From NCBI GenBank assembly GCA_028693645.1, contig JAQUUY010000002.1:1-64000 (forward strand): a DNA stretch of 64,000 bases, written 5' to 3'. The notes under the pieces were generated by a model that searched no databases, was not told the origin of the DNA, and worked only from the letters and a program-made list of their open reading frames with translations. The DNA comes from Eubacteriales bacterium (lineage in GTDB: Bacteria > Bacillota > Clostridia > Peptostreptococcales > Anaerovoracaceae). Of this stretch, positions 389 through 41,969 are shown piece by piece (positions within the stretch are counted from its first letter, which is position 1; every line of letters begins with the position of its first letter). A program made the translations under genes and the position numbers.

Positions 389-972
389 AAGTTATCTAAA
401 ATCAAGCCTAGCGAACACAAAAAGTATAACTTTCTGAAGGCGAAAAAAATAGAATTCTTTTGACAAAACTGAAACCCACTTATTCCAACCTTCCTGACTT
501 CGCTTTTTCGCTCAAGCTTTTACTGCTCTTCGGGAAATTATCTAAAAGCACTATTCAAAAGGAAAAAAGGTATAACATTTTGGCAAAAGTTATACCTTTG
601 GGTTGAAAATTATTGAAATTTAGATAACTTTGAAGCGAGAAAAAACACAGGCAGAAGACATTCGGATTGGAAACGTTTAAATTTCAATGTTTTCATCAAT
701 TCGCCCAAAAGCTTCGAAGGACGGGATTTGTGCAAGTTATCTAAAACCACCTTATATGAGGCCATTTTAGATAACTTTAAACAAAAGCTGGATAACAAAA
801 ACGCCAGTTCCCCTTCCCCATAGAAATCGTCCGAGTTCCACAAAATTTGAAGAACGAGAGATTCCAACGAAAATAGAAACTGGCGTTTAAATGAGCTTTA
901 CGCGAGTTATACATGGGCTAACGTTAGCTATGACGTGATCTGACGGCAGCCAAAATCAGAACTTATCTAAAA
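389..972. repeat. Cluster of six AAGTTATCTAAAA-type 13-mers in both orientations
   Basis: 389-401(+), 535-547(+, 12/13), 618-630(-, 12/13), 734-746(+), 765-777(-), 960-972(+, 12/13); plus inverted repeats AAAGGTATAAC/GTTATACCTTT (566-576/589-599) and AACGCCAGTT/AACTGGCGTT (about 799-808/877-886). Confidence 0.65.
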
Positions 973-2519
973 TTTCTTGCTTGCTCAAATTCCAGTTTGA
1001 TTTCTTCACTTGGTTCTTCTGTCATTAACGAAATAAACAGTATGAATACACAAGATACAACGAAGGCCGGGAACAACTCATAGATTCCGAATACTCCGCC
1101 CAAGGGTTTAAGAACAAGTTTCCAAAGGAAAACCATACCCGCACCGGAAAGCATTCCTGCAATCGCTCCGGCTCTGGTTGTTCTCTTCCAGAAAAGCGAA
1201 AACAACATGATCGGCCCAAAGGTCGCTCCAAAGCCCGCCCAAGCAAACGACACGACAGTAAAAATAACACTGTTTTCATCCATAGCGATGATCATGGCAC
1301 ATACCGCAATTACGACCAAGGTAATTCGAGAGACGTGCAGTACCGTCCTGTCAGTGGCTTCTTTTCTCATGATACCCTGATAGATACATTTTGAGAATGC
1401 ACCGGCCGCAATGAGGAGATAAGAATCCGAAGAGCTTATCGTAGCAGCAAGGATACCGGCCATAACAAGGCCTGCAACAAGAGGAGCGAAGAAATTAGTT
1501 GAAAGCAAAATGAAAATGCCTTCCGCTCCTCCCTGCGTTCCAAATGCAGTCGGGTAAAGAGCTCTGCCTATGATTCCAATCGAAATCGCAGCACAGAGAG
1601 AAATGCCACACCAAATCACAGCGATACGTCTTGATAGTTTCAATTCGCTTGGATTTTTGATTGCCATAAATTTCATCAAGACCTGGGGCATTCCAAAATA
1701 ACCAAGGCCCCAAGACATGGTTGATACAATCGTAAGCCCGACATAAGGCGAAGCTTCAGCAAAAAGCGGATCACCAAATTCACTGACCTGCTGTATTCCA
1801 TCAACCATTTTCGGATTGGCGATTCCAAAGAAATCAAGGAAACCGGGGATTTGTTGGACGTTTGCGATGACCGCATCGATTCCTCCGGCAGTTGTCACTC
1901 CGACAAATAAAACTGCTACGAGAGAGAAAAACATGATAATTCCTTGCATGAAATCCGATGCGCTTTCTGCAAGAAAGCCTCCGATGAAAGTATACCCGAT
2001 GACAAAGAGTGCTCCTGCAATCATCATGTATTGATACTTAATATCAAACAAGGTGCTAAACAGTTTCCCCACCGTTACGAAACAGCTTGCTGCATAAACC
2101 GTAAAGAACACGAGAATAAACAGGGCTGCAATTGTCATCAAAACTTTTTTGTTTTCTTTAAAGCGATTGCTGAAAAAATCCGGAATCGTAATAGAGTCGT
2201 TCGCGATTACGGTATAACCACGTAGTCTTCTTGATACAAACAACCAATTTAAATAGGTTCCAATCAAAAGACCGATTCCTGTCCATATTGCGTCGCTCAA
2301 GCCATACCAATAGGCAACACCCGGAAGTCCCATAAGCAACCATCCGCTCATATCGGAAGCTTCTGCTCCCATCGCCGTGACCCAAGGCCCAAGCGTTCTT
2401 CCTCCAATGAGATAATTCTCACTGCTTTCATTTGCGCGTCTTGCATAATGCAATCCAATCCCAACGACAACTGCGATGTAGCAGGACATTGAGATTAGAA
2501 TTTGTGCTTTATCAGGCAT
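963..2519 (-). CDS. putP: Sodium/proline symporter (SSS family)
   Basis: 518 aa; YLIGGRTLGPWVTAMGAEASDMSGWLLMGLPG and GILAATISSSDSYLLIAAGAFSKCIY are PutP signatures. Confidence 0.93.
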   Translation of the reverse strand: MPDKAQILISMSCYIAVVVGIGLHYARRANESSENYLIGGRTLGPWVTAMGAEASDMSGWLLMGLPGVAYWYGLSDAIWTGIGLLIGTYLNWLFVSRRLRGYTVIANDSITIPDFFSNRFKENKKVLMTIAALFILVFFTVYAASCFVTVGKLFSTLFDIKYQYMMIAGALFVIGYTFIGGFLAESASDFMQGIIMFFSLVAVLFVGVTTAGGIDAVIANVQQIPGFLDFFGIANPKMVDGIQQVSEFGDPLFAEASPYVGLTIVSTMSWGLGYFGMPQVLMKFMAIKNPSELKLSRRIAVIWCGISLCAAISIGIIGRALYPTAFGTQGGAEGIFILLSTNFFAPLVAGLVMAGILAATISSSDSYLLIAAGAFSKCIYQGIMRKEATDRTVLHVSRITLVVIAVCAMIIAMDENSVIFTVVSFAWAGFGATFGPIMLFSLFWKRTTRAGAIAGMLSGAGMVFLWKLVLKPLGGVFGIYELFPAFVVSCVFILFISLMTEEPSEEIKLEFEQARNFR

Positions 2520-2634: not shown

Positions 2635-5600
2635 TCAGATTTTCTTTTCTCGTTCTTTCCATTCCCGAAGAGCGTTTAGTGCATCGGAAAAATCAAAATT
2701 CACAATATGCTTTTCCAGTAGTTCCGCAGTGCTTCCAAGGAAGGGCCCAAGGATTTTTTTTGAATCCTCAAACGCATCAATAACTGCCGTATCCTTATTC
2801 CTTAACATAAGTTCTATCTCTTTAAGTAAATCCTTGGCTTCCGCCGAATCCTTGTCAGACAGAAGATTGTTTAGGATAAAAGTTTCTACTTGCGGCAAGT
2901 TTTCATTTAAGTCGCTTATTAACCGGGTCAATTCTTGTGATAACACTTCAAGACTGTTTCTCAGCTGTTCGGGATCGTGCTCTGCTGCGCTGAACTTTTC
3001 GATTTCCGTTGCAAGAGAATGAATCCTTTCTGCACCGAGATTACCGGCAACTCCTTTCAAGGAGTGCACGGCCGCACGTAATCCCTTCTCGTCACTTCTT
3101 TCCAAGCAATCTGTAATCGTCTTGGCATCACTGTCATGACCTTCTGCAAAAAGTCTCAGCAACTTCAGATAAGCAACCGAATCTCCCTGCAAAATACGTA
3201 ATCCCGCATTGACATCGAGGCCTGCGATTTTTTTCAGGTCAGCCACTGCTTCAGGCAAAACACCAGGTTCATTGCTATCAATCGTCTCTTTCTTCTCGGA
3301 AACCTGCGGGACTTTTGATTCATGCAGTTTTTTCTTTGGAGCGACCCACTTTACAATTGCACGAAATAATTCCTCCGGTTCAACCGGCTTTGGCAAGTGG
3401 TCGTTCATGCCCGCCTCAATCCAGCGTCTTCTGTCTTCTTCAAAAGCACTTGCGGTCATAGCCAAAATCGGCACGGTCTGGCCAACGGGGTTCTTTCGTA
3501 TCTCCGTCGTTGCCGTTATGCCATCCATCACCGGCATTTGTATATCCATCAGTATCAAGTCGTAACGAACGGATTCTATGATAGCTACCGCTTCTTTTCC
3601 GTTGTCAACAACGCTAACAATCATTCCCACAGACTCAAGCAGCTGACAAGTCACTTCTTGGTTGATTGCATTGTCTTCCACAAGAAGCACCATAGCTCCT
3701 TTTCGAATGCTCAGTTGTTCCTCAAGTCCCTTTGAATCGATTGCCGGTAGCATACCCGGTATTTCGAGCAATAATTCCGCCAACACATCAAAGAGCGAAG
3801 ATGGCGTCACCGGTTTAGACAATATATGTGCGATACCTGCTCGTTCCAACTCTTCCTTGGCAAGCTGATCTCCGTAAGCCGTAATCATCAACATAAGTGG
3901 TTGGCTTAATAAATCGAGTGAATGCATCATTAAGGCGGTATCAACACCGTCCATATCAGGCATTTTGAAATCCAGCAATATGATTCTATAAGGATCCCCT
4001 ATTTTATCGGCTTCAGCAACTTGTTCAAGACCCGCTTTTCCGGTTTCAGCTATTTCAGGGCGAAACCTTATATCCGAGAGCATTTCAAACAATATCGTAC
4101 TGTCCTCTTTTGAATCATCAATAATCAAAACTCTCATTCCCGCGAAGGATTTAAGATGAGCTGCATTCTGTGGAAGAAGACCCGAAATACCGAACGGGAT
4201 TTCAACGAAGAACACACTACCCTTTCCTTCTTCACTTTCGGCACCAATTGTGCCTCCCATCAGTTCCGCCAAGCGCTTGCTGATGGAAAGACCGAGCCCT
4301 GTGCCCCCAAAGCGTCTGGTCGTCGATTCATCTGCCTGTTCAAAATCATTGAATAAGCGATCAATTTTTTCTTTTGCAATACCAATCCCTGTATCACTGA
4401 CCTCAAAGCGAAGCATGACCTGGTTGTCCGTTTCACTCAACACACGTGCTGTCAGGGTGATTCCACCGCGTTCTGTAAACTTCGCCGCATTTCCAATCAA
4501 ATTTAAGAGGATTTGACCAAAACGAATTCCATCGCCGCGAAGCATCAATGGAATATGATCGAGATCAACACGCAAGAATAGTTTTTTTGCTGCAATATCA
4601 TCATCCATTATACTGCAGAGCTGATCAATCACTCTCGCGGGTTCAAAATCATTGATATTCAATGCAAGTTTACTTGCCTTAATTTTAGAAAGATCAAGGA
4701 TATCATTTATGATGCTGAGCAGATGTCTTGCGGCACCCGCAAGCTTATCAATCTGTTCCGTTTGGCGACGGCTCAGCGGATCCCTTTTAATTAAATGGGC
4801 ATAACCGATGATTGCATTGATGGGCGTTCTGATTTCGTGGCTCATATTGGAGAGGAACGCACTTTTCGCTTGATTCGCAGCTTCTGCCGTTTCTTTGGCA
4901 AGTTCAAGTTCTAAGGTTCTTGAAACGACCATGTCTTCAAGATTTAAGCGATAATCATCTAACTGCTGAGTAATATGGACTTTTTCGGTGATGTCCTGCA
5001 CGGTTCCAAGCCCAACAAGGGGATTCCCTTCGCTGTCAAATTCAAATTCCGCTTTTTCTTCTACCCAAACAATTTCGCCCTTTGAAAGGAGTCTGTAACT
5101 GATATTAAATTCCTCTCCCCTTAATGCCCCATACCAAGCTCTTCCTACCATGTCACTGTCTTCCGAATACACACAAGCCATATAACTTTCGATGCTTTGC
5201 GGAAGGCCTTTTTTGATTCCAAAAATACGGTACACTTCATCGGACCAAATGAATTCATTTTTTCGGATATCAAGATACCAGTGTCCGGTTTTGGAAACAG
5301 ATTGCGCTCGCTTTAAGAAATATTCGCTGCGCTGCAATTCTTCGGCAACTTTGATGCGATCCTTTGTAATAAAGGACATACCAAAATAGTTCGCAACCTG
5401 ACAAAAGAAAGAGATCTCGTCGCTTTCCCAATGGCGTTCACTTTTTCGATAGGAAAAAGAAATCACTCCTCTGTTTCGGCCCGCGGATTCAAGTTTGCAA
5501 AGAAGCAAGGATTTTAAACCCGCAGGTCTCAACTCCTTTTCTTCGAAATCCCGTAGATGAATCTCCTTAATTGATTTTTTCACTATAATGTAGCGGTTGT

Positions 5601-40413: not shown

Positions 40414-40442
40414 TTGACAAAGAGAATTCATCTTGTTAGAAT
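40414..40442 (+). promoter_or_regulatory. Promoter for ZTP-riboswitch-controlled transcript
   Basis: TTGACA (40414-40419), 17-bp spacer, TAGAAT (40437-40442). Confidence 0.65.
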
Positions 40443-40458
40443 CAAATTAATAGAAAAG

Positions 40459-40527
40459 CAATATGGAACTGACGGATTAGTGGAAATAACCACATGGACC
40501 ATATTGGATAAAGTCGACCGTCTGGGC
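40459..40527 (+). ncRNA. ZTP (pfl) riboswitch aptamer, copy 1
   Basis: CAATATGG/CCATATTG P1, GGAACTGACGG, AGTGGAAATAACCAC hairpin, GTCGACCGTCTGGGC 3' domain; ACGG/CCGT pseudoknot possible. Confidence 0.85.
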
Positions 40528-40558
40528 AATGTTTTCTTTGTTCAGGGCGGTTTTTTTT
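40517..40558 (+). terminator. Intrinsic terminator overlapping the 3' domain of ZTP aptamer 1
   Basis: ACCGTCTGGGCAA pairs with TTGTTCAGGGCGGT (one bulge, some G-U), followed by a T tract. Confidence 0.78.
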
Positions 40559-40589
40559 ATTATCCGGAGCAAGAAAACAACTAAAAAAT

Positions 40590-40658
40590 CCTATGGAACT
40601 GACGGATACTAGTGGAAAAACCACGTGAACCATAGGTGTTGAAGCCGACCGTCTGGGC
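40590..40658 (+). ncRNA. ZTP (pfl) riboswitch aptamer, copy 2
   Basis: CCTATGG/CCATAGG P1, GGAACTGACGG, AGTGGAAAAACCACGT hairpin, GCCGACCGTCTGGGC 3' domain. Confidence 0.88.
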
Positions 40659-40695
40659 AAAGAGGAATCACTCTGCTCAGATGGTCTATTTTATT
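40648..40695 (+). terminator. Terminator-like hairpin overlapping ZTP aptamer 2
   Basis: ACCGTCTGGGC pairs fully (with G-U) with GCTCAGATGGT, extended by AGAG/CTCT; followed by CTATTTTATTT. Confidence 0.65.
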
Positions 40696-40739
40696 TCCGA
40701 GCAGCCTCTTTCCACTTGTTGTAAGAAGGAGATGTTCGC

Positions 40740-41969
40740 ATGAAAAATCGTTGGTTGATCGCGTTATCTGCAATTGGAATCCATATCTGCATTGGCAGTG
40801 TCTACGCTTGGAGCGTTTTGACAAAACCAATCATGAGCCAGATGGGGTTTAGTCTAAAATCAACACAATGGACCTTTTCACTTGCCATTCTGTTTCTCGG
40901 CCTATCAGCAGCCTTTCTTGGAGGATTCGTTGAAAAAATGGGACCGCGAAAATCAGGGCTTTTGTCGGCATGCCTATTTGGCGCAGGCATGCTTGGAACC
41001 GGCTTAGCAATCTATTTGGGCAGTCTTCCCCTGATGTATCTATTCTATGGCGTGATTGGGGGAATGGGTCTTGGAATCGGCTACATTACACCGGTGTCAA
41101 CTTTGGTAAAGTGGTTTCCGAATCGTCGCGGTTTCGCCACAGGTCTTGCCATTATGGGCTTCGGATTTGCAAGCTTACTTGCCGGGCCAATTATGCAGCG
41201 CTTGATTGGATCCTATGGTCTAGTGCTTACATTTGTAATCTTAGGAATCATTTATTTGGCTATCATGGTTGCCGCTTCGCTGTATCTTGCTCCGCCGAAA
41301 AAGACAGAAACGTCCCTTGTAAATTCGCCGGTTCAGAAAACCACGAATTCTCTGACTCAGTTCACCGCAAAAGAAGTTCTTCGGGCATGGCAGTTTTACG
41401 CCCTCTGGTGCATCTTTTTTATCAATATCACCTGTGGGATTGGCCTCCTCAGCGTTGCCTCCCCTATGGCACAGGATGTAGCAAACCTGTCGCCTCAAGC
41501 GGCAGCCTCCATGGTCGGTCTGATCGGCCTGTTTAATGGACTCGGTCGAATTGCTTGGGCTTCTGTTTCAGACTACATTGGCCGGGGAACAACATATATT
41601 GCCTTCTTTTCCATTCAAATAATAGCCTTCTATCAATTATCTTCCACTACAAATGCTTTCGCCTTCCAACTCTTGGTTCTTCTTATCATTACTTGTTACG
41701 GGGGTGGATTTGCTGCGATGCCCGCATATCTCAGTGATTGTTTCGGTACCAAAGAATTGAGTGCGATTCATGGCAAAATCCTTACTGCTTGGGCTTCTGC
41801 CGGAATCGTCGGCCCCTTACTTGTCGCATGGATTCGAGAAGAAACCAGCAGTTATACAAGCACCTTGCATATTTTTTCAATCTGCTTTGTATTTTCCTTG
41901 CTCATTGCAATTTACTTGAAAGTAAAAACAAGCCCTCAACGCGCAAAAGAACTATGCCCTATCGAATAA
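40740..41969 (+). CDS. MFS transporter, OFA (oxalate/formate antiporter-like) family
   Basis: 409 aa, about 12 TM; IGSVYAWSVLTKPIMSQMGFSLKSTQWTFSLAILFLGLSAAFLGGFVEKMGPRK, GFATGLAIMGFGFASLLAGP. Confidence 0.9.
   Translation: MKNRWLIALSAIGIHICIGSVYAWSVLTKPIMSQMGFSLKSTQWTFSLAILFLGLSAAFLGGFVEKMGPRKSGLLSACLFGAGMLGTGLAIYLGSLPLMYLFYGVIGGMGLGIGYITPVSTLVKWFPNRRGFATGLAIMGFGFASLLAGPIMQRLIGSYGLVLTFVILGIIYLAIMVAASLYLAPPKKTETSLVNSPVQKTTNSLTQFTAKEVLRAWQFYALWCIFFINITCGIGLLSVASPMAQDVANLSPQAAASMVGLIGLFNGLGRIAWASVSDYIGRGTTYIAFFSIQIIAFYQLSSTTNAFAFQLLVLLIITCYGGGFAAMPAYLSDCFGTKELSAIHGKILTAWASAGIVGPLLVAWIREETSSYTSTLHIFSICFVFSLLIAIYLKVKTSPQRAKELCPIE

Follow-up and report, generated by a model that had tools for sequence, protein, structure and literature searches.

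ZTP riboswitches are generally regarded as regulators of enzymes in purine and folate metabolism. The common targets published for them are purH, fhs, pfl, glyA and folD (PMC2864571), and the experimentally studied ZTP switch of Thermosinus carboxydivorans is a transcriptional ON-switch in which P3 overlaps the terminator (PMC7337938). Five tandem ZTP riboswitches have been published, four located before folate genes and one before moeA, the moeA case being predicted to act as an OFF-switch, and tandem riboswitches with more digital responses have been reviewed (PMC9481103). As to the transporters of solved structure that are closest in sequence to the protein described below, K355 of OxlT is essential for oxalate and is described as conserved in the OFA family (PMC10070484), and in SfMCT F359 is required for lactate transport, the F359A exchange abolishing transport (PMC6573034).

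The locus analyzed here lies within a stretch of 64,000 nucleotides, referred to as the window, and contains two adjacent RNAs that the original prediction had assigned to the ZTP class and placed upstream of an OFA-family MFS transporter, with an extent of 40459–40695. The Rfam covariance model matched both RNAs over its full length, each well above the gathering score of 39 bits (Table 1), and within the 64-kb window there was no Rfam match above gathering score besides these two aptamers. The P1, P2 and P3 elements lie at the positions originally given; in aptamer 1 P2 is formed by GTGG and CCAC, and P3 is accompanied by a pseudoknot. The predicted pseudoknot of J1/2 with the P3 loop is present in both units as ACGG with CCGT, and compared to the family consensus GGCG/CGCC it represents a compensatory change to GACG/CGTC. 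We expect from these sequences that both RNAs bind ZMP/ZTP. The aptamers are found 205 and 75 nt upstream of the gene for a 409-aa MFS transporter, one strong promoter-like site of the sigma-70 type precedes both units, and no promoter was found between them in the window leader. The predicted extent becomes slightly wider once this promoter and the Shine-Dalgarno sequence are included. With two complete aptamer-plus-platform units preceding a single gene, the window carries a genuine tandem ZTP riboswitch, made of ordinary parts and having the same predicted ligand twice.

Table 1. Coordinates of the features of the tandem ZTP leader and its gene in the window
Feature	Position	Strand	Evidence or detail
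Promoter, sigma-70 type (putative), TTGACA-N17-TAGAAT	40414..40442	+	11/12 consensus, TG before -10
ZTP/ZMP aptamer 1	40455..40534	+	RF01750, 55.4 bits, E 2.8e-6, model 1-86 of 86 (64-kb window)
Aptamer 1, P1	40459-40466/40499-40506	+	
Intrinsic terminator 1	40516..40558	+	14-bp stem 40516-40552, -16.4 kcal/mol, then U8
Clamp stem, unit 1	40530..40581	+	encloses terminator 3' arm; duplex -13.8 kcal/mol; TGTTTTCTTTG 40530-40540 with CAAGAAAACAA 40570-40580; cognate rank 1 of 25
ZTP/ZMP aptamer 2	40585..40665	+	RF01750, 57.3 bits, E 1.1e-6, model 1-86 of 86 (64-kb window)
Intrinsic terminator 2	40647..40696	+	stem 40647-40686, -25.9 kcal/mol, then weaker UAUUUUAUUU
Clamp stem, unit 2	40659..40711	+	-9.0 kcal/mol; AAAGAGG 40659-40665 with CCTCTTT 40705-40711; cognate rank 2 of 25
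Shine-Dalgarno GAAGGAGA	~40726-40733	+	sequence
MFS monocarboxylate carrier, 409 aa, proposed formate importer	40740..41969	+	NF049980, MFS_1, orthologue context

Each unit has a terminator of its own, the 5' arm of which is in both cases the aptamer's own GACCGTCTGGGC. As these arms (40516–40529 and 40647–40659) fall inside the aptamers, aptamer and terminator are mutually exclusive in both units, just as had been claimed from the letters. Terminator 2 is probably the weaker one because its U tract is interrupted. In addition, most leaders show a further complementarity, in which the 16 nt on the 3' side of P3 can pair with sequence beyond the U tract. The energies of this clamp duplex, which are approximate because simple rules were used to place the terminator ends, averaged -14.3 kcal/mol for cognate pairs versus -8.2 kcal/mol for swapped pairs in 25 leaders, and none of 5000 permutations was as low. 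The clamp segments flank the terminator 3' arm; along the leaders L090 to L142 their sequence varies while pairing is kept in most, and in units 1 and 2 of the window the sequences are unrelated and the complementarity is nevertheless kept. ZTP leaders of other genes give a similar but weaker signal (-9.5 versus -6.8), the clamp being found in some of them. The helix can form in read-through RNA only, and we suggest that it sequesters the terminator 3' arm. Masking of the Shine-Dalgarno sequence by the clamp beat shuffled sequences in only 6 of 23 leaders, so control of translation through this segment would concern a few leaders and is not general. The clamp appears as a second helix common to many ZTP leaders, and we found no description of such a helix.

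The association of the riboswitch with this carrier is conserved. A one-genome-per-species scan of named genomes, from which the best 80 relatives were taken, yielded 24 orthologues from Negativicutes, among them Phascolarctobacterium, Veillonella, Selenomonas, Megamonas, Anaerovibrio, Dialister, Sporomusaceae and others. In 23 of the 24 the ZTP 3' motif lies 68–171 nt before the match start, the long-branched L153 being the only Negativicutes orthologue lacking it, and Rfam found a ZTP RNA at these places in all 23 genomes, 21 of them above the gathering score; the two Selenomonas loci L101 and L102 carry at the transporter a ZTP RNA of 34.3 bits, under the gathering score. The promoter-aptamer layout of the Negativicutes leaders is the same as that of the window. 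Twenty-two of these orthologues have a single unit, and one, in a Sporomusaceae SM1-B11.1 MAG (L114), has two units of 58.2 and 62.1 bits, 117 nt apart (G509:C17:139565-139647 and 139682-139764, with the MFS start at 5001). As regards a possible vertical origin of both tandems from a single duplication in an ancestor, unit 1 of the window is 76% identical both to unit 2 of the window and to unit a of L114. A maximum-likelihood tree placed the window protein and the 23 ZTP-linked Negativicutes proteins in one clade of 24 (support 96/84), the two deepest branches of which are the window and L114, that is, both tandem loci.

A more distant group of carriers, whose aligned sequences share 36–40% identity with the window protein, also includes members with a ZTP RNA directly upstream, as in G079 (56.2 bits) and, below the cut-off, in G273 (35.3 bits). 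In L063, a glycine riboswitch of 59.2 bits with a weak second aptamer lies at 884–1082 (-), about 2 kb away from the G273 carrier on its downstream side. Another family of the same order contributes G426, in which a ZTP RNA of 49.9 bits directly precedes a carrier of the distant group (L088, ~5672); the frame of this carrier is otherwise a full-length match and holds an in-frame TAG after codon 42, reflecting either a pseudogene or an assembly error, and for this reason it was left off the tree. A ZTP RNA at a contig edge in G193 was considered as the partner of a carrier located on another contig, which the sequences do not support. Across the family of the window genome, ZTP RNAs occur in 78 of 299 genomes, and where the downstream gene was read (names were assigned by reading of translations) they lie in front of pfl, purE, fhs and genes resembling purH and formate dehydrogenase. 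Among the places listed in this survey there was no second closely spaced pair, indicating that the tandem is unusual locally.

The window genome (1.68 Mb) encodes Fhs (906 bits) and has a match to AICAR transformylase. No pyruvate formate-lyase, no FocA-type formate channel (PF01226) and no ZTP RNA beyond the tandem pair were detected in it, absences that are provisional because the genome is ~89% complete. In the 23 ZTP-linked Negativicutes genomes Pfl was above cut-off in only 4; FocA was found in 8, which counts against the formate reading. As a cell having Fhs without Pfl needs another source of formate, ZTP-driven import would be reasonable. The carrier shares 68% identity with Negativicutes proteins and 42% at most with any protein of its own family, and it groups inside the Negativicutes clade. 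A contaminating contig is an unlikely explanation, since eight genomes of the family have a butyryl-CoA:acetate CoA-transferase 77–85% identical to that of the window, which places the contig in the family of the genome. The Negativicutes affinity of the carrier is therefore better read as horizontal transfer, and judging from these identities the riboswitch-carrier cassette was likely acquired as such.

The original prediction had offered formate, oxalate or another one-carbon or purine precursor as substrate. The neighbors of relatives lacking ZTP RNAs, mostly from Bacilli and 53–60% identical, speak for formate. There are 35 loci in which formate dehydrogenase alpha (TIGR01591, 813 bits) adjoins the carrier and 34 in which FdhD does; a small DUF2294-like gene, so named by reading as it has no NCBIfam match, is next to it in 23. 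PurT uses free formate for purine synthesis, and in 6 loci its gene lies upstream of the carrier in the same orientation, at distances of 59–290 nt, mostly 59–70 nt. At least one of formate dehydrogenase, FdhD or PurT was present in 44 loci, and none of the conserved neighbor clusters was recognised as a lactate enzyme. The loci in which purT is followed by the carrier are L109, L111, L115, L119, L125 and L127, all from Bacillaceae, and likely constitute a purT-formate transporter operon. In the more distant group, G106 and G207 (L068 and L069) display the order fhs-folD-folT-MFS carrier, with a THF riboswitch (RF01831) between folD and folT, the gene of a folate ECF component. Formate is the one metabolite linking all these contexts, i.e., formate dehydrogenase and FdhD, PurT, fhs and the ZTP alarmone.

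The protein itself is an MFS transporter as predicted (MFS_1, 140 bits), and the assignment to the OFA family proved to be an approximation: it fails both OFA models (TIGR00890, 198 against 374.85; TIGR04259, 164 against 335) and passes NF049980, the SfMCT model named 'L-lactate MFS transporter', with 412 bits against a cut-off of 320. Residues were mapped from SfMCT and OxlT, the nearest solved structures by sequence, onto an alignment, the rows of which span ZTP-, FDH-, PurT- and THF-linked members. Y115, F141, N266, R270, Y320, F324, L348 and W351 did not vary in any row covered, alignment gaps aside. The carboxylate-binding Tyr, Asn and Arg are thereby kept throughout the clade, as is a Trp (Trp351) at the position of K355 of OxlT. 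Going by these residues, the pocket would fit a smaller monocarboxylate.

Several other readings of the carrier were weighed against this evidence. If it were a transporter of L-lactate or, more broadly, of C2–C4 monocarboxylates, ZTP control would reflect carbon or energy status, and both the NF049980 score and the conservation of SfMCT Tyr119, Asn276, Arg280, Tyr331 and Phe335 would be accounted for. Yet the carrier is only 27% identical to SfMCT (PDB 6g9x, an L-lactate/H+ symporter) over the aligned stretches, and although it keeps the carboxylate-binding Tyr/Asn/Arg/Tyr/Phe set, the lactate-pocket residues Phe359, Cys362 and Leu145 are replaced by L348, W351 and F141 in every row covered and the proton-site His250 is missing (V239). 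As the neighbors, moreover, are formate dehydrogenase, FdhD, PurT and Fhs-FolD, we find lactate transport distinctly unlikely. Since the close carriers with a ZTP or FDH link that were scored with NF049980 (window, L090, L104 and L109) all exceed its cut-off, it is rather the public name 'L-lactate MFS transporter' that is probably wrong for this clade. An oxalate:formate antiporter of the OxlT type would agree with the 28% identity to OxlT (PDB 8hpj, OFA), with the retention of its Arg272 as Arg270 and with the OFA models matching at all, but these matches stay under cut-off, the second basic residue of OxlT, its essential lysine, is Trp351 in the whole clade, which makes oxalate unlikely as substrate, and formate efflux under a ZTP ON-switch would be senseless; such an antiporter is hardly credible. 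Hence, of the substrates originally offered, oxalate becomes unlikely and formate is the one to which the gene contexts and the 23 of 24 ZTP-linked orthologues point.

That the carrier moves some other one-carbon or folate-related anion, such as a folate precursor, a formyl donor or a purine precursor, the formate enzymes adjoining it for reasons of regulation, could explain why it is accompanied by a ZTP riboswitch in some lineages and by a THF riboswitch in others, in one case immediately after folT. However, formate dehydrogenase has no folate substrate, PurT takes free formate and the pocket resembles those of small monocarboxylate carriers, and we regard this reading as very unlikely. A separate question concerns the tandem, in which one unit could be a decaying duplicate, leaving a single working switch. 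The interrupted U tract 2 and the single unit of 22 orthologues are compatible with decay, whereas the aptamers, both at 55–57 bits with the core intact, the strength of both terminators, the clamp stem kept in both units and the second tandem at L114, which likewise branches off early in the clade, argue against it, so that decay seems unlikely.

The reading we prefer, and consider likely, is that two serial ZTP ON-switches gate a formate importer during shortage of 10-formyl-THF. It is built on aptamers, terminators, a promoter-like site, a gene order and a conserved association that are present in the DNA. Transcription would start at about 40449. With sufficient 10-formyl-THF, ZMP/ZTP would be low and the terminators would capture the P3/pseudoknot strands, so that transcription would stop at about 40558 or, for transcripts leaking through, at about 40696. 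When formyl donors are short, purine synthesis would stall at ZMP, and binding of ZMP/ZTP would keep GACCGTCTGGGC in the aptamer, both terminators would fail and the transporter would be made. Formate imported by the carrier would be charged onto THF by Fhs, restoring formyl-THF, and ZMP would be consumed through PurH. The direction of control, ON, is suggested by the overlap of aptamer and terminator together with the characterised homologues, and that of transport, import, by the regulatory logic; carriers located beside formate dehydrogenase in Bacilli may serve export. Since the units are in series, read-through would approximate two ligand-dependent probabilities multiplied with each other, so that leak would be lower and the response steeper than with one unit, and the stricter response originally expected of the tandem is accordingly a plausible one. 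More broadly, the balance of the evidence inclines us to view this distinct MFS clade, at present annotated as L-lactate or oxalate/formate transporters, as a dedicated formate importer of many Bacillota, which in Negativicutes would be under the control of one or two ZTP riboswitches sharing the clamp helix; as part of this reading the helix would hold the terminator 3' arm away in read-through RNA.

The recurrent link between ZTP RNAs and a transporter would mean that the alarmone also governs how the one-carbon unit itself is taken up. For a widespread and probably misnamed transporter clade it supplies a specific hypothesis on the substrate, one that applies to genera available in culture, among them Veillonella, Selenomonas and Bacillus, and the tandem leaders of the window and L114 next to the single ones of the other Negativicutes offer a natural comparison for serial duplication.

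In the literature searched, outside of which the gene list of Kim 2015 lies, we came across no formate or OFA transporter described as ZTP-controlled; the carrier as a ZTP target appears undescribed, and the novelty of this gene association is provisional. FocA/FNT channels (PF01226) have a fold unrelated to that of the carrier and the same proposed substrate. Compared to the single ZTP switch of Thermosinus carboxydivorans, the window has the same aptamer, with P3 overlapping the terminator in the same manner, but in duplicate. With the published tandem ZTP riboswitches it has in common two serial aptamers, each with an expression platform of its own and predicted to act as an ON-switch. Tandem ZTP riboswitches are thus already known and the novelty lies in the target gene: none of the published pairs is described before a transporter (PMC9481103) and the common ZTP targets are those named at the outset (PMC2864571), whereas the pair in the window precedes an MFS carrier.
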